From positions 1 to 21,702 of IMG/VR virus record IMGVR_UViG_3300007354_000021: 21,702 nt of DNA; one strand, written 5' to 3'. Positions 243-11,800 of this stretch are shown here, in pieces. Source of the stretch: a virus. Under the pieces are notes generated by a model, which saw nothing but the letters and a program-made list of their open reading frames with translations, did not search any database and was not told the origin of the DNA. The position numbers were made by a program, and so were the translations under genes. The first letter of the stretch is position 1. Every line of letters starts with the position of its first letter.

Positions 243-1277
243 TCACTCTTGAGGTTCAGAAGATTTTACTCCGTTCAGTGTCTCAGTAGCCTTCCGTAGT
301 CTCTCAGGATCAAGATGAGCATACTTTAACGTGGTCTGTATGCTCTTATGCCCTAAGAACTCTTTCACTATCATCAAGTCCATACCAGCATTCACCAAGC
401 GGCTAGCTGTAGCATGTCTCAACGCATGGATCACAAACCCATTATCCTCGGATAACCCTATTCTCTCCTTTGCCCAGTTCCAATAATACTCACACTTATC
501 TTTAGTGAGCGATCCAAAAGGTTTATTCCCGAACCGTAGCCTGTCCTCAAGAATACCCTTAACTCTATCAGTAATAGGTAACATCTTAGGATGATCTGCT
601 TTATTCTCCCATACGTATATAACACCCTTGGATAAATCGATATCCTTTTCCTCTAATGCTAATCCCTCTGATAGTCTAACTCCAGTATCTCGTAGGAATT
701 CCACAAATGAAGCCATTAGACAACGATAATATCCACCTTTGTCTCTCAATACTCCAGTTATAAGGGATTCTTCTTTATCAGATACCCACCTTATTCTATT
801 ATTATTCTCCTTCATTCTAGGTATCTTTGGTATATTAGATACTTCTCCCCATTCTACAGCTAGGGCGAGTATCTTACTTATAAGGGATAGTTTTCTGTTG
901 ATAGTAGCTAGAGCGTATTCCTTCTCTATCATAGTAGATACCAAGGCATTAAGCCTCGCTCTGTCAATATCATATAATAGGGTATTACCCCCTATTATCT
1001 CTTCAATTATCTTCCAATTATGGTCATAGGTTTCAGGAGATTTACTATTGATAGACCAAAACTCTTTATAAGCTCTGTCATAAGCTTGCTTTAGGGTTAG
1101 TCCACTAGGCTTTCCCTTTGGCTTTAAACCATGCTCTTGAGTATAAAGCTCTTTCATTCGAGCATCGTGAAACTTCTTAGCTAATCCCTTATCTTCTGTC
1201 TTGGTGGATTCCCTAAACCTTTTTCCGTTGACTGTTATGTCTATCCACCAGACATTACCACGTTTCTTTAGTGCCAT
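243..1277 (-). CDS. int: Tyrosine recombinase / phage integrase
   Basis: 344-aa site-specific recombinase that would join attP to the host tRNA-Leu gene. An N-terminal arm-DNA-binding-like segment (about residues 1-50, RGNVWWIDITVNGKR) precedes a SAM-like core-binding domain (about 60-155) and a catalytic domain (165-335). Visible catalytic residues are R201 (DTGVRLSEGL), K226 in the beta-hairpin, H284 and R287 (HALRH), H310 (LGHKS) and the nucleophile Y319 (TLKYAHLD). All the expected residues are present, so it should be active. The ATG has an AAGGA Shine-Dalgarno that overlaps the end of the upstream regulator gene (3 bp between genes), so the two are translated from one message. Attachment core and candidate arm repeats lie directly downstream. 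A T7-like phage with an integrase is expected to be temperate. Confidence 0.96.
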   Translation of the reverse strand: MALKKRGNVWWIDITVNGKRFRESTKTEDKGLAKKFHDARMKELYTQEHGLKPKGKPSGLTLKQAYDRAYKEFWSINSKSPETYDHNWKIIEEIIGGNTLLYDIDRARLNALVSTMIEKEYALATINRKLSLISKILALAVEWGEVSNIPKIPRMKENNNRIRWVSDKEESLITGVLRDKGGYYRCLMASFVEFLRDTGVRLSEGLALEEKDIDLSKGVIYVWENKADHPKMLPITDRVKGILEDRLRFGNKPFGSLTKDKCEYYWNWAKERIGLSEDNGFVIHALRHATASRLVNAGMDLMIVKEFLGHKSIQTTLKYAHLDPERLRKATETLNGVKSSEPQE

Positions 1278-2651: not shown

Positions 2652-2855
2652 TTACAGTTTAATAACCTTGCCTTTTGTCCCTCTATTCCATGGGATTCTA
2701 GGAATATTCAATCCCTTTATTTCCCTATGCTCTTCATAAGCCCATTTAATGTAATGGGGCTCAAAAGAACTAGGCAGTTTTCCGTTGTTTCGATCCGCTA
2801 AGCAGATCATTTCTTGTAAAGCCGTTCTTCTAACATTTGGCATATACCTACGCAT
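2652..2855 (-). CDS. Hypothetical basic protein, 67 aa
   Basis: Not recognised. The ATG at 2855 follows AAAGGAGAAAAACAA, a strong Shine-Dalgarno. Rich in Arg/Lys (MRRYMPNVRRTALQEM, IPWNRGTKGKVIKL) with a central amphipathic region, so it may bind nucleic acid or a host protein. Short basic proteins of this kind are common among T7-like early genes. Followed after 18 bp by the 68-aa gene. Confidence 0.65.
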   Translation of the reverse strand: MRRYMPNVRRTALQEMICLADRNNGKLPSSFEPHYIKWAYEEHREIKGLNIPRIPWNRGTKGKVIKL

Positions 2856-2909: not shown

Positions 2910-2983
2910 CTTAATGAGACTCACGATAATATGCGATCCTTGGGGAGTAATCTCCCCTGACTCGCTGTAGGAATCTCATTAAG
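2910..2983. repeat. 10-bp inverted repeat enclosing a perfect 6-bp hairpin
   Basis: CTTAATGAGA (2910-2919) and TCTCATTAAG (2974-2983) are exact inverse copies. Between them GGGGAG (2942-2947) and CTCCCC (2952-2957) form a perfect stem with loop TAAT. The right arm abuts the next hairpin (2983-3014). The whole gap between the 118- and 67-aa genes is therefore structured. Confidence 0.6.
2911..2979 (-). CDS. Possible 22-aa basic peptide
   Basis: A short ATG frame (MRFLQRVRGDYSPRIAYY..., Arg-rich) that begins immediately after the hairpin at 2983-3014, with GGGGA about 4 nt before the ATG. The position relative to the hairpin is like that of the 25-aa peptide at 3416-3493. It overlaps the inverted repeat, which may be the real reason for its sequence. 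Weak call. Confidence 0.2.
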   Translation of the reverse strand: MRFLQRVRGDYSPRIAYYRESH

Positions 2984-3014
2984 TATTCCCCTACGGAGTT
3001 ACTGTAGGGGATAC
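2983..3014. repeat. Intergenic hairpin 1 (loop GGAGTTACT)
   Basis: GTATTCCCCTAC (2983-2994), 9-nt loop GGAGTTACT (2995-3003), GTAGGGGATAC (3004-3014): an 11-bp stem with one bulged T. It directly follows the 118-aa gene. Its flanks (TTAAGTATTCC and ATACGTTAGTGTA) match those of the hairpin at 3508-3540. No T tract follows, so an RNA processing or stabilising role is more likely than termination. Confidence 0.75.
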
Positions 3015-3031
3015 GTTAGTGTAGATACTAC

Positions 3032-3388
3032 TTAATCAACTTCCGAGAATACGTCCATTATATATTCTTTGATACCGTTCTTATCCCTGCCGGTTACTCT
3101 AATGTCATATCTCCCGAATGCTGGGGTTATTATTACCTTATGCTCAGTCCATCCACTATAAAAGCCATTATCGTTCATATGGTGGAAACTGGTGATAAAC
3201 ACAAGCTTTTTACTTGTGGAGGCATCAATATCTAGTTTCGTTCCGCAGTCAAAACCTGCACCATGAGGGAGACGCCTACATAGGTCATCGAGATGCTCTC
3301 GATGTGTCTTTTCCCAAGCTTTATTACCTGATTTTTGGCAGTTCTTGAGAGCTTCTAAAATTTGCGCTATTTCTGTGTAAAGATTCAT
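3032..3388 (-). CDS. Conserved hypothetical phage/plasmid protein, 118 aa
   Basis: The ATG at 3388 follows CTGGAGGATTTACAAG. The N-terminal third is a helical segment (MNLYTEIAQILEALKNCQKS... with KTHREHLDDLCRRLPHG). The rest is a beta-rich domain with GFDCGTKLDIDAS, LVFITSFHHMND, GFYSGWTEHKVIITPAFG and YDIRVTGRDKNGIKEYIMDVF. From memory, this arrangement (GxGxDxGTK, FHHMN.NGxYxGWTEH, ITGRDxNxIKEY) is widespread as an uncharacterised protein in phages and mobile elements; no biochemical function is known to me. It lies between two hairpins in the accessory operon. Confidence 0.8.
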   Translation of the reverse strand: MNLYTEIAQILEALKNCQKSGNKAWEKTHREHLDDLCRRLPHGAGFDCGTKLDIDASTSKKLVFITSFHHMNDNGFYSGWTEHKVIITPAFGRYDIRVTGRDKNGIKEYIMDVFSEVD

Positions 3389-3415
3389 CTTGTAAATCCT
3401 CCAGTTGTGTATATA

Positions 3416-3493
3416 TCAGATAAATAAAACCACGTGCCCTATAGTCAATAGAGAGACCATAGGAATGAATGTGAAATATACTAGGGTAAACAT
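3416..3493 (-). CDS. Hydrophobic 25-aa membrane peptide
   Basis: ATG at 3491-3493 follows AAGGAG at ideal spacing (AAGGAGTACACA then ATG). The peptide starts MFTLVYFTFIPMVSLL, ends IGHVVLFI, and is almost entirely hydrophobic with no charged residue, so it should be a single membrane-spanning segment. It starts directly after the hairpin at 3508-3540 and ends 27 bp before the 118-aa gene. Function unknown; size and character fit host-membrane-acting phage micropeptides (toxic, superinfection-exclusion or regulatory). Confidence 0.6.
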   Translation of the reverse strand: MFTLVYFTFIPMVSLLTIGHVVLFI

Positions 3494-3507
3494 TGTGTAC
3501 TCCTTAA

Positions 3508-3540
3508 GTATTCCACTACAGTAACTCCGTAGTGGAATAC
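3508..3540. repeat. Intergenic hairpin 2 (loop AGTAACTCC)
   Basis: GTATTCCACTAC (3508-3519), loop AGTAACTCC (3520-3528), GTAGTGGAATAC (3529-3540): a perfect 12-bp stem. It lies after the 75-aa gene and before the Shine-Dalgarno of the 25-aa peptide. The loop is the exact reverse complement of the loop of hairpin 1 at 2995-3003 while the outer flanks are in the same orientation. Confidence 0.85.
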
Positions 3541-3558
3541 GTTGGTGTATATGTAGGG

Positions 3559-3786
3559 TTATTCAAAATCCCTTAAGGCTAACCTCACTGTACGGAGAGA
3601 ATAGCGAACTCCGTCTGGTGTTTTAGCTGGAAGACTGGAAAATAGGAGACTAGCAGCCTCATCCAGTGTCTTTGTTTGGTTAACGCACTCCTTCGCTAAC
3701 CTGTACAAGCCTTCGTCGTTGTTTATCCATAGAGACACGTTCCATGCGTTGTAGGATTCGTGTCCGTTATAGGGTTTAGATTTCAT
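3559..3786 (-). CDS. Conserved small phage protein (NAWNVxLWIxNDEGLY motif), 75 aa
   Basis: The ATG at 3786 follows CCTAAGGAGATAAGCC, a strong Shine-Dalgarno. It contains the motif NGHESYNAWNVSLWINND followed by EGLYRLAKECV, then a helical acidic region and a basic C-terminal helix (GVRYSLRTVRLALRDFE). The NGxxSxNAWNVxLWIxNDExLY pattern recurs in small uncharacterised phage and plasmid proteins (I recall a DUF of this kind, but cannot confirm the name). Soluble, function unknown. Its start-region leader is nearly identical to that of the 242-aa gene upstream. Confidence 0.8.
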   Translation of the reverse strand: MKSKPYNGHESYNAWNVSLWINNDEGLYRLAKECVNQTKTLDEAASLLFSSLPAKTPDGVRYSLRTVRLALRDFE

Positions 3787-4622: not shown

Positions 4623-4634
4623 GCATTTTTGTAT

Positions 4635-4680
4635 GCGATCCATCACTGTGTGCGATCCATCGCTGTATTCGATCCATGAG
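4635..4680. promoter_or_regulatory. Three tandem operator-like dyads, 17-bp period
   Basis: GCGATCCATCAC (4635-4646), GCGATCCATCGC (4652-4663) and TCGATCCATGAG (4669-4680) start exactly 17 bp apart; the first two are good dyads of GYGAT, CC, ATCRC. They lie upstream of the -35 box of the early promoter on the same helical-phase-independent spacing. They probably bind a dimeric regulator, as activator or as cooperative repressor. Confidence 0.7.
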
Positions 4681-4689
4681 TGTAGACCC

Positions 4690-5220: not shown

Positions 5221-5278
5221 CGAAATTAGCTCCGTTTTAGGGTAACCCGGTAGGGTAGTACAGGGTCACCCCATTACG
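5221..5278. repeat. 58-bp repeat, copy 1
   Basis: Pairs with 5420-5477. Core identity is highest over AACCCGGTAGGGTAG. On the minus strand CTACCC-TACC-GGGTTAG-type hairpins can form. In this copy the reading frame that is open in copy 2 is interrupted by a 1-bp difference after the GGGTTA. It immediately precedes the Shine-Dalgarno of the 56-aa gene. Confidence 0.75.
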
Positions 5279-5299
5279 TTCGAAATTTACCTTACTATC

Positions 5300-5419: not shown

Positions 5420-5477
5420 CCTAAATTAACCACGTTTTAGCTAACCCGGTAGGGTAGCTTAGGGTAATCCATTTACG
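5420..5477. repeat. 58-bp repeat, copy 2
   Basis: Same-orientation partner of 5221-5278, offset about 199-200 bp. It contains AGCTAACCCGGTAGGGTAGCT, which can pair AGCT with AGCT around ACCC-GGTA-GGGT. It lies inside the 30-aa frame 5421-5513. Confidence 0.75.
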
Positions 5478-5513
5478 TGTCTCTAAGAGGCTCTCAGGAG
5501 CTTCTACGGTCAT
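5421..5513 (-). CDS. Possible 30-aa peptide after the holin gene
   Basis: ATG at 5511-5513 follows GATAGGAGATAAAC, a very good Shine-Dalgarno, 37 bp after the holin stop. The peptide starts MTVEAPESLLETRKW and its C-terminal half (ITLSYPTGLAKTWLI) is coded by the 58-bp repeat. The other repeat copy can code RNGVTLYYPTGL in the same frame without a good start, so the repeat may be a decayed coding duplication. No family recognised. Confidence 0.45.
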   Translation of the reverse strand: MTVEAPESLLETRKWITLSYPTGLAKTWLI

Positions 5514-6198: not shown

Positions 6199-6221
6199 AA
6201 ACCTATAGAGACACCTAAAGG
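6199..6221 (-). promoter_or_regulatory. Candidate phage RNA polymerase promoter B (SP6-like)
   Basis: On the minus strand CTTTAGGTGTCTCTATAG (CTATAG at 6203-6208) matches 15 of 18 bases of the SP6 promoter core ATTTAGGTGACACTATAG, followed by GTTTATT. Its upstream half is the end of the 23-bp inverted repeat. This is the best phage-promoter match I found. Confidence 0.65.
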
Positions 6222-6283
6222 ATCAACCTAATGAGACACTGTAAGTGATCTAGGAAGATTTCTCATTAGGTTGATCCTTTAGG
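6214..6283. repeat. 23-bp perfect inverted repeat (hairpin) behind the terminase gene
   Basis: Arms 6214-6236 and 6261-6283 are exact reverse complements (each arm includes GATCAACCTAATGAGA or its inverse), with a 24-nt spacer 6237-6260. Far longer than needed for a terminator and without T tract. Such a long double-stranded RNA arm could be an RNase III substrate; as DNA it could be a cruciform used in concatemer processing. Confidence 0.9.
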
Positions 6284-6370: not shown

Positions 6371-8029
6371 TTAAACTTCAAAGAACTTATGTCTTTCTGA
6401 AGAGTACCCTAGAACATGCTGAGAGAACTTCTCTAGCTCTTTCTGCAGAAGCTCTTCCTGATGTCTTCTTTCGTTGTCCTCTGTGTTCTGTCCTAAGACC
6501 TTCATCCAGTAGCCTACAGCAATGGCTAGAGAGTCTATACGGTCGTCAAAGATCAAAGAGCCCTTGTCTTTAGTGATCCTTGAGAGTTGGTAGAAGAGTT
6601 GATATCTAGGGTCTTCAACCTTGAGATCAGCCTGAATGACAGCCTCGTCTACAACTAGACGGTGTTGATTCAGGACAGGCTCAAGGGTGTCTATGATCCT
6701 GAGTTCTTTTCTTTGAGATTGTCTTACTCCCTCAGGGTCAATGGTGCAGGGGTATATGGAAGATAATACAGGTTTGAATAACTCGGTGAACATACCATCA
6801 CCGAAGTTATCTTCTATTATTATCCAATTAACTCCATACCTTTTGGCAATACTAGCTAAACCCTTTAGCGTAGTATCCACATAACCATCCCTAAACCCAC
6901 CAGAGGCAACAAGATATAGTAATCCTCTGGAATGCTTAACTACTGCATAACCTGTCTCATTAGTGCCTCTACCTGATGGGTCGATAGCCATGACACACCC
7001 CTGATAATTATCCCACTCAGGGGAGACATACATGGGTTTATACCATCGGTCTCCAGTGAAACCTACTGATGGTAAATCTAGTATCTGATCTCTACCGGAA
7101 GCCCAAGCTAACTTGACTGGGGCTATAGTATTATCGCAGTTAAATACTATGAAGTCAGATATTTTAAGAGGGTATTTCTCCATGTCAGATAAACTAGTAT
7201 CTAACATGAACTGAAGAGCAAAGCCTGACCTTCCATAAGAGGCTTCACGCTCCCTTAAATCCAGGTCATTAAACCTTTTAGGATCAGTAGGGATACCAGG
7301 TTTAACAGCCCCATCTAATACCTTATCTAATACTATTGGTGCTAATCTACCTTGATACCTATTTAATTCAGTTTCTTTAGGGTATCTAGCTGGCCATATT
7401 CTTACCTGATACCCCCTTTCTGCTAAAGTATTATAGACAGATAATTCAGTTTGTGGAGTACCTAGATAAGTAATTTCTCCACCAGGCATTAATACTGCAT
7501 CAAACTCTTTAACGATTTCTAATAGTTTATCTCTTTGGGTTTGTGTTAAAGAGTTATTTAAGGATTCAATATCGTCTGCAATGATGAGTGTTGCACGGCT
7601 ACCAGTCATCTGCCCAGTGATGCCCACAGACTTCACAGAAGGAGCATGAGCAGGCTTGGTAGGACCGACATCAAAGGCTATGTTGGAGTCTCGCTGTCCA
7701 GATCTAGCCTTTAGATGTACCAGTACTGGAAGCTCCGATATCAGCCTTTTAGTGAACAGAGAGAAATCATCTGCACGAGTCTTGCTGGCTGAGACTACTA
7801 GGATTTTCTCATCAGGGTTTCTTAGTAGTCTCCAGCAAACATAGGCCGATGTGATCCAAGATTTACCCACACCACGGAAAGCCTCAATGATCCTTCGCCT
7901 AGGACCAGTTTGAAGATAATGGGCAATGTCGTATTGGACAGGAGTAGGGGAGGGGAGACCTAGTTTATTCCAGGTGTAGTAGAGGAATTTCCTAAAGTCT
8001 CCCTTAAGGGAATCTTCTAGGGAGGACAA
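6371..8029 (-). CDS. terL: Terminase large subunit (T7 gp19-like)
   Basis: 552-aa packaging ATPase/nuclease that moves DNA into the prohead through the portal and cuts concatemers. Residues 49-58 (EAFRGVGKSW) are the Walker A; 147-154 (TLIIADDI) the Walker B; YLGTPQTE after it is the coupling motif. The RNase H-like nuclease follows: AIDPSGRGTNETGYAV, then IIEDNFGDGMF and FDDRIDSLAIAVGYW supply the acidic metal ligands. Extended segments (GQRDSNIAFDVGP, SVKSVGITGQMTGSRA, YPLKISD) agree with T7 gp19 (586 aa). The first codon is TTG, 2 bp after the small-subunit stop; no in-frame ATG exists between, so a weak start and translational coupling are likely. Confidence 0.98.
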   Translation of the reverse strand: MSSLEDSLKGDFRKFLYYTWNKLGLPSPTPVQYDIAHYLQTGPRRRIIEAFRGVGKSWITSAYVCWRLLRNPDEKILVVSASKTRADDFSLFTKRLISELPVLVHLKARSGQRDSNIAFDVGPTKPAHAPSVKSVGITGQMTGSRATLIIADDIESLNNSLTQTQRDKLLEIVKEFDAVLMPGGEITYLGTPQTELSVYNTLAERGYQVRIWPARYPKETELNRYQGRLAPIVLDKVLDGAVKPGIPTDPKRFNDLDLREREASYGRSGFALQFMLDTSLSDMEKYPLKISDFIVFNCDNTIAPVKLAWASGRDQILDLPSVGFTGDRWYKPMYVSPEWDNYQGCVMAIDPSGRGTNETGYAVVKHSRGLLYLVASGGFRDGYVDTTLKGLASIAKRYGVNWIIIEDNFGDGMFTELFKPVLSSIYPCTIDPEGVRQSQRKELRIIDTLEPVLNQHRLVVDEAVIQADLKVEDPRYQLFYQLSRITKDKGSLIFDDRIDSLAIAVGYWMKVLGQNTEDNERRHQEELLQKELEKFSQHVLGYSSERHKFFEV

Positions 8030-8841: not shown

Positions 8842-11800
8842 CTATCGATTATGTAAACCGTAGTCCTGTACGTTTTTAGAAGGCAGGTCTTCTCCCGCAT
8901 ACTGGAAGAAATGTTTAAGGACAGGGATAGACGCTAAAGGCATCAATCCAAGGAGAGCACGATACTCCTTCTTGGTGAAGTCATAATCGTCTCTTAGGAG
9001 GGCATTCAGAGAACCTAGACCACCGTTATACATGTCGTCTAGTAAGTGGACTGAAGGGATACTCTGAACGATATCTGAACCCAATCCTGAGGATCGAGCA
9101 TAGTTGAATAGAGGCTCCTTGCCCATGTATAGGCCGGATATCCAACCAACCATAGCAGGAAGCATTGAGGCTTGCCCCATGCGGTTAATGGCTCCCTCAA
9201 CGATCTTCTGGGGAGACATCCTAGCTTCATAGGTGTCTGTTCCTCGATAGTTGTCATAGGTCTGAGCAATATAAGACAACATACCAAAGGTGAAACCATA
9301 GGCAACAGTTAACCATTGCACTTGGTCTCTAATAGCTACACCCCTCATGGTCTGCTTATAGATACCATTCATGGCAAAGCTACGGAATTGAAACAAGAGC
9401 TTTCCTATGGCCTTGTGCATGAAGGGCATGGTTCCTCCATAGGTACCCTCTTGGATGACCGTAGTGGTCAGCCTGTGGAGAGCCATAGCGAAACCATTCC
9501 ATACATCAGGGTCCCACTGATCTTCCTTGAAGACATGGACTCTACCCTTCTTACCAAACTGAACCTTAGAGGGATCGGCAAGATGAGCAAAGAGGGATTC
9601 AAGCTGTTCGTCAGATAATCCCAAGGAGCGAAGATTCCTTGCTTCTCCTGAGTTGTTCTTGAGTATTTCTTTGGCTGATCCTTTGTACTTCTTAGCCATA
9701 TCAACTAGCTTCTGGCTCATGCCAGCAAGCATCATTCTTTGTTCCATGGCAATGACAGCATTGAAGCCAGAGACATCAGACACAAAGTTGCCTACCTTGT
9801 GTAGAGCCTTATCCACTCCTTGAACAACTACCCCATCTTGAGGGTTGAAGTGAGTGAATATCTGCTGTCTAAGTCTACTGGCTCCAATACCTGTGACAGC
9901 CTCAAGCTGTCGTACAAGCTCATTGTTCAGCTTACCATCGGCTGCCAGAGTCACCATGTTCTTTAACTCGGGCATCTGCTTGTATAAAGCGGGTAACCCG
10001 ATGTTGGCCAACATGGGGGCGGCTTCGGTTAGCTGAGACCATACAAACTGACCACCACGTACAGCAAAGTTAAAGTCCCTGGCTCTTCTCCCCCAGGTTA
10101 CGAGGAATGAAGAAGGGTCCGAATCCAATGGAACACCAGTAACAGCGTCATAAAGGTAATTGCTATACGATATTGTTTTAGAAATTTCTTTATCAGAGAC
10201 ATCTACAGCTTCCTCTTTGTATTTGTTTAGAGCAGCCAAGAAGTCAGACCTTCCTTTTATTCCTGTAGTCTCAGCAACAGCTATATGACCAGCCATTTGA
10301 TGAGCGTACATAGGGACTAGCGTGTCTAAGTCTCTTTCAAACAGGTCTGCCATCCTGACAGTTACTTTCTCTCCATTCTTGTTTGTAAACTCCTGAGAGT
10401 AGGTCATATCTAGGTCTACTCTACGCTTTAATCTACTGGTCCCTGGCTTAGTGTCCCTTAGGTTAAGCGTGTTGAGAATCTTATCTATTTCCTCAGCAGG
10501 AGTGTCAACATCCTTAAGGAGAGCCTTAAGAGTACCAGCATCTTTATATGACATTCCACCATATTCTAGTGAATGTCTGAAATTTCCATAGTGAAGGACG
10601 TTCTTAACGTACCCTCTAGCAATCTTATCGTATAGCTTTTCAAGAAGCTCTTGGTGTTCCTTAAGGTTAAAGTCTTCCCCCATATCAGCTTTCTTAGGGG
10701 AATATGTACCGTCCTTTATATCGGCTGAGCGTAGGGAGTTCTTAAAGAGGTCTACAAGGTCGGCACTTTGCCTTGATAAAGAGTCTGCCGTTTCTCTGAA
10801 CTTCTGGGAAGAGATTATGCGGGGAAGATAAGGACCATCATTAAGCTTCTCTATGGGTGCATCAGGGCCTACAAGACCAGAGGAAGTTAACCTTTTCTTA
10901 TATGTCTCGAAGAATTCTCTAGTAGCCTTAACCGCCTTAGCCTCTTCTTCGGTCATTTGAGATAGAGGAATACCAGACTCATGTAAGTCAGCAATACGGT
11001 ATATAAAAGATTTCCTTCTAGCTTCTCGTCCTAACCATGATCCTCCTTTGTCGAATTCCTTGAATGCCTGATTAAACTCTCTAAGCCAATTAGTCTGAGT
11101 GGAGTGGATCAGAACATTTCTTACTTCTTCAGCAGAGTGACCAATAGCTTTGTTCTCTGCGTTGATTCCTATAGGGTCTTGGCCTAGACGGGATAAAACC
11201 TGTGCTGTAGGCTGCTTACGGCTAAGGAGCCAGCCAGAGGCATCAAACCTGAGTCTTTCATACTTAGCTCCTACGTTACCTTCTCTGATGTAGTCTTCTC
11301 TGAGTTCATCAAGGGTAGGGGAAACTTTACGCTCTCCCATCAGGTCATCTACATAGTCAGCCTGTTGAGCACCTACGGTAGATAAGCCTTCAGTAGAAGC
11401 CTTACGATACTCTTGCGCTGCCTTATGCAAGTCTCTCGTAAGGGCAGCTTGAAGCTCAGGACGATAGCCGAACTGTCCTAAGCCTCCCTGAAAGAGAGCA
11501 CCTGTAATAGAAGCCTCTAAGATTTCCTCAGCGGGCTTAGTCTCTTGCAGACCATAAAGCCCTGCTTCAATAGCTCCAGCACCAAGCGCACCAAGGCCCA
11601 TCTGACCAGCCGTATAAGCTGCCCTACCTTGAGCAACCAAGAAACCTGAGCCTGCCGTTGCTGCACCAACGAGTAAACCCGCAGGGTCAGCAACACCAGT
11701 GAGAAGGTTGATGATGGTTCCACGTAACCCTGTTTTACCCAAGGTACGTCTGGCGTCTTGTTCCTCTGCAATATTGTTGAGGATAGCTGAGAAATGCTCT

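Follow-up and report, generated by a model that had tools for sequence, protein, structure and literature searches.

Twin intercistronic hairpins with mutually inverted loops in the accessory operon of a putative temperate T7-like phage

Our analysis of the window, which is the entire 21,702-base virus record, identifies a duplicated hairpin, with copies hp1 and hp2 at gene boundaries of an accessory operon, that share their arms and keep their outer flanks in the same orientation, yet carry 9-nt loops that are exact reverse complements of each other. A local inversion of the loop in one of the two copies is well supported by these observations. We consider it probable that hp1 and hp2 are paralogous intercistronic RNA stem-loops with a boundary role at the mRNA level, one copy of which had its loop flipped by a quasi-palindrome template switch.

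Gene context and anatomy of the hairpin pair

Gene content identifies the carrier of the hairpins as a predicted temperate T7-like phage with a leftward, accessory operon. The large terminase subunit is T7-type (best match LUZ100, 61%), long structural-region genes lie in a run, one of them with a transglycosylase domain, and the left end holds a holin-like gene, accessory genes, a MarR-like regulator and a tyrosine integrase, with all called genes on the minus strand. The regulator adjoins the integrase, an arrangement also reported for LUZ100, a T7-like phage of temperate type (PMC10134795).

On the plus strand, hp1 with its flanks reads CTCATTAA-GTATTCCCCTAC-GGAGTTACT-GTAGGGGATAC-GTTAGTGTA, where the middle three elements are arm, loop and arm, and its stem contains one bulged base; hp2 correspondingly reads CTCCTTAA-GTATTCCACTAC-AGTAACTCC-GTAGTGGAATAC-GTTGGTGTA, with a perfect 12-bp stem. 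On both strands, each is predicted to fold much more strongly than its shuffled versions, with z between -3.6 and -5.0. A compensated change in one arm pair distinguishes the copies, CCCC/GGGG against CCAC/GTGG (C-G to A-T, n=1).

In mRNA order, the 75-aa gene is followed by its stop, 18 nt, hp2, TTAAGGAG and the ATG of a 25-aa hydrophobic ORF, while the 118-aa gene, which has its own ribosome site, is followed by its stop, 17 nt, hp1, TTAATGAG and a 22-aa ORF of doubtful status. The near-identical distance of 17 and 18 nt after the stop codons supports the gene-boundary placement of both hairpins proposed in an earlier, sequence-only reading of this DNA. That reading also had each hairpin directly preceding a small start codon, which is credible for hp2, where AAGGAG and then ATG 3493 follow, but not for hp1, where ATG 2979 has no clear free ribosome site and may be unused. 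There is no T-run on either strand and neither hairpin appeared in a terminator scan, which sets aside an intrinsic terminator; an Rfam RNA family was likewise rejected, all covariance-model matches being below the gathering score and at chance level.

Table 1 Positions of the hairpins, their flanks and neighbouring genes in the window
Feature	Position	Strand	Details
hp1 intercistronic stem-loop	2983-3014	-	arms 2983-2994 and 3004-3014, loop 2995-3003; mRNA loop AGUAACUCC
hp2 intercistronic stem-loop	3508-3540	-	arms 3508-3519 and 3529-3540, loop 3520-3528; mRNA loop GGAGUUACU
hp1 upstream flank, conserved	3015-3023	-	mRNA sense TACACTAAC
hp2 upstream flank, conserved	3541-3549	-	mRNA sense TACACCAAC
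hp1 downstream flank	2975-2982	-	TTAATGAG, altered form of ribosome-site flank
hp2 downstream flank	3500-3507	-	TTAAGGAG, includes AAGGAG ribosome site (3500-3505)
Tyrosine integrase	243-1277		
67-aa gene downstream of hp1	2652-2855	-	no known family
22-aa ORF directly after hp1	2911-2979	-	read from sequence; may be untranslated
118-aa accessory gene between hp1 and hp2	3032-3388	-	diverse phages have homologues (34-56%); neither Pfam nor PHROG gave a match
25-aa hydrophobic predicted ORF directly after hp2	3416-3493	-	MFTLVYFTFIPMVSLLTIGHVVLFI; read from sequence
75-aa accessory gene upstream of hp2	3559-3786	-	DUF7249, phrog_871

The window contains several other notable features. Positions 50-95, which adjoin the integrase, resemble the 3' end of a tRNA gene (GTTCGAGTCTCTCCATTCGCACCA) and are a probable attachment core; ARAGORN found no whole tRNA there. 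A 17-bp tandem repeat, TGTATGCGATCCATCAC, occurs in 2.8 copies at 4630-4684 and in two diverged copies at 2317-2351, with single partial matches at 202-216 and 2930-2944; in total, 8 matches of this type were observed compared with 1.2 expected in shuffles, and the repeats could serve as operators to which the MarR-like regulator binds, or as iterons. A perfect 23-bp inverted repeat with a 24-nt spacer (6214-6283) separates the terminase from the holin-like gene. The third member of the hairpins' direct-repeat family, at 6212-6248, was rejected as a further hairpin copy, having a different structure. Finally, a 77% direct repeat (5236-5279 against 5435-5478) was rejected as a related hairpin, since its minus strand can be read instead as a duplicated protein motif, TLxYPTGL, in small ORFs.

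Orientation of loops and flanks

The loops of hp1 and hp2 show 0/9 mismatches when compared in inverted orientation and 7/9 when compared directly. In the sequence around the loop, 7/43 positions, plus one gap, distinguish the copies, and at this rate at least 7/9 loop differences would arise with a binomial p of 8e-5. A repeat finder reported the pair both as the best inverted match of the window (29 nt, 93%) and as its leading direct-repeat family. Since a palindrome reads alike both ways, it is the flanks that decide between inversion of the loop and inversion of the element. Direct flank agreement is 7/8 on the left and 7/8 on the right, or 15/20 over 10+10 nt, a match equalled by 2 of 200,000 random position pairs, while inverted flank agreement is 6/20, as expected by chance. 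With the flanks direct and the loop inverted, the loop alone has been reversed, rather than the whole element. These comparisons confirm the shared arms, same-orientation flanks and reverse-complement loops noted in the sequence-only reading, and support its proposal of a loop inversion in one copy.

Because the downstream flank is ribosome-site-like, functional convergence may account for some of the flank agreement. Matches to the conserved upstream flank are confined to the two hairpins in the window, even with up to 3 mismatches allowed. In a scan of 740 hairpins from the window and fetched loci (~605 kb), run with a relaxed inner-arm key where a stricter key misses hp1/hp2, no other pair within a locus combined matching arms with loop inversion, and between loci there was no such pair at all.

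Origin of the inverted loop

To account for these features, we favour duplication followed by a template switch. A module consisting of a stop codon, 17-18 nt, a stem-loop, a ribosome-site flank and a start would have been duplicated, and later, in one copy, the replication polymerase would have switched to the opposite strand as its template while crossing the hairpin. Such a switch would keep or restore perfect arms, invert the 9-nt loop and leave the outer flanks in place; one arm substitution followed by one template switch would account at once for the compensated pair and for the loop's inversion. Strand-switching replication, one of the causes suggested in the sequence-only reading, is documented: template switching between short inverted-repeat arms gives arm homogenisation and spacer inversion, only in arms >9 bp (PMC8604942), and 7-8 nt loop inversions with compensatory changes have been attributed to it in rRNA hairpins, bacteria included (PMC8794818). 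While we infer a template switch here, intramolecular recombination across the arms would give the same product and is inseparable from it in this case. With two copies, and no relative with the same hairpin, the flip cannot be polarised in direction or timing.

An RNA role is suggested because the hairpins are positioned after a stop codon and before a ribosome site, without a T-run. From this position and the predicted folding, we infer that the stem functions in RNA, where the module may stabilise the upstream message at its 3' end, provide a processing point, or modulate re-initiation at the ribosome site next to it; the effect of the module presumably rests more on the stem than on the loop sequence.

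The simplest reading of the 29-nt, 93% inverted repeat, taken by itself, would be that a palindromic element reached the second boundary, by copying or insertion, in the reverse orientation, the flank match then being coincidental or a product of functional convergence. The downstream flank, TTAAKGAG, is indeed a ribosome-site motif that occurs elsewhere in the window; however, the upstream flank with its adjoining arm (TACACYAACGTATYCC) has no other match there, and the upstream flank agrees directly at 8/10 positions whereas inverted flank agreement stays at chance, making this explanation unlikely.

Full complementarity of the loops also raises the idea that it was selected, with the hairpins pairing in the mRNA through a 9-nt kissing interaction or a 29-nt duplex, thereby looping out the 118-aa gene or forming an RNase III stalk. 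The predicted hp1-hp2 duplex, at -47.8 kcal/mol, is more stable than the separate hairpins at -15.5 and -21.7 kcal/mol (sum -37.2), and when the 600-nt segment is folded, its minimum-energy structure joins hp1 with hp2. Nevertheless, we judge such selection to be very unlikely: inverting a loop automatically makes it complementary to the original, in a translated mRNA local hairpins would be kinetically favoured over pairing at long range, and comparison with other loci lends no support, the loops of the paired hairpins at loci L005 and L003 (described below) not being mutually complementary. It is also very unlikely that the inverted loop was retained through pairing across the 118-aa gene as a self-encoded, intra-operon kissing or duplex switch.

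The anatomy of the pair, with 12-nt arms, an asymmetric 9-bp centre that is identical between the two sites, and inverted placement, is also reminiscent of loxP/FRT- or attC-like recombinase sites, which would make the 500-bp cassette invertible or movable, and the phage encodes a tyrosine integrase. We nonetheless regard this as very unlikely: no arm-like sequence is found near the putative att core (the best has 4/12 mismatches), a search of both strands within ~40 nt showed no attC R boxes (RYYYAAC/GTTRRRY), the gene in the cassette is collinear with those beside it, and the direct outer flanks are not predicted by such a recombinase. The central region of tyrosine recombinase sites is usually 6-8 bp, a length that the 9-bp centre exceeds. 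Inversion of the whole 500-bp cassette was rejected, as it needs two unrelated long palindromes as ancestors.

Distribution, parallel architecture and known systems

The suggestion in the sequence-only reading that the hairpins are mobile elements finds no support in their distribution, with two copies in the window and none in 2.9 million viral contigs or in phage or plasmid collections. The contigs were scanned with five DNA patterns (loop-plus-arm 21-mer and 17-mer, two arm patterns and a right-flank pattern), the collections were searched with the hairpin region by sensitive blastn, and the loci of four homologues of the 118-aa gene were also found to be without the hairpin. Within the window, the upstream flank with its adjoining arm is confined to the two hairpins, and no relative carrying a copy was found. 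Three matches to the 17-mer were rejected as relatives, since neither their stem nor their flanks correspond to those of the hairpins, and two of the three lie inside long ORFs; so were L056 and L057, which are unrelated sequence, and L058 and L059, which have AT-flanked hairpins without the flanks. The hairpin region is known from one assembled contig: L006 matches 10.4 kb of the window at 99.95% identity, but it stops at 6694 and the hairpins lie outside its coverage. Apparent loop inversions between L006 and the window were an artefact of L006 being stored in the opposite orientation, and none were found between related T7-like contigs.

At two loci with homologues of the 118-aa gene, we noticed a comparable arrangement. 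In L005, the homologue is preceded and followed by hairpins (9933-9956 and 10383-10413), and a third (11091-11118) lies ahead of the next gene. These hairpins have common flanks, with GCGCCA before the stem and an exact repeat of CGCTGGCCACCAGGTCAGACAACG at 9962 and 10417, and their stems differ yet are fully paired, while their loops differ, which argues that stem pairing rather than sequence may have been kept. The segment 9922-11166 of L005, with three stop-hairpin-leader-start elements between accessory genes, would be well suited to a study of intercistronic hairpin covariation. In L003, the homologue and a neighbouring gene lie between near-identical, terminator-like hairpins in direct orientation (9811-9835 and 10773-10797), a bracketed gene pair that resembles a moron cassette. 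Since the L005 and L003 hairpins are unrelated in sequence to hp1 and hp2, this represents parallel architecture and not homology. The presence of duplicated boundary hairpins around the 118-aa accessory gene at 3/5 loci examined argues for their recurrence there, and suggests that stop-hairpin-leader-start may be a recurring architecture. Together with hp1 and hp2, the unrelated L005 elements point to a recurrent habit of phage accessory operons, in which duplicated modules of this kind space genes; if general, such modules would help to explain how accessory genes are gained in phage operons with their own expression signals kept.

Among known systems, the intercistronic RNase III processing hairpins of T7 are stem-loops between genes without a terminator T-run. 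In the same way, hp1 and hp2 lie between genes of a T7-like phage and have no T-run, although RNase III cleavage is hypothetical here, and they are located at the accessory/lysogeny end rather than in the early region as in T7. Chloroplast genomes show small inversions in which the loop between two short inverted arms is flipped, in spacers outside coding sequence; those are plastid events seen between species, whereas ours lies between paralogues in a phage.

The closest named analogue comes from cluster K mycobacteriophages, whose extended start-associated sequences (ESAS) recur immediately before start codons of the non-structural region and consist of imperfect inverted repeats separated by 4-13 bp (PMC3203893). 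Similarly, hp1 and hp2 are inverted repeats with a short spacer just upstream of starts among non-structural genes, the hp1 start being doubtful. In contrast to ESAS, which have 17-bp arms of defined consensus, occur in many copies and are linked to the 13-bp SAS GGGATAGGAGCCC (PMC3203893), hp1 and hp2 have unrelated arms of 11-12 bp and two copies, and their stems are followed by TTAATGAG and TTAAGGAG, respectively, with no SAS.

At the level of the event, the pair resembles quasi-palindrome template-switch mutations (PMC8604942, PMC8794818) in its perfect or compensated arms, its reversed loop of kept length and its untouched flanks, and its arms, as in the yeast spacer inversions, are >9 bp (PMC8604942). 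The differences are that the reported cases concern alleles of related strains, in contrast to paralogous copies in one genome, and that 2-5 substitutions were reported in yeast genes (PMC8604942), compared with a 9-nt loop here. Template-switch loop inversion is thus an already known type of event, of which hp1 and hp2 are a clean example and not a new system; for a phage, paralogous hairpins in one genome with an exact loop flip and a compensated arm change make an unusually clean footprint of it.
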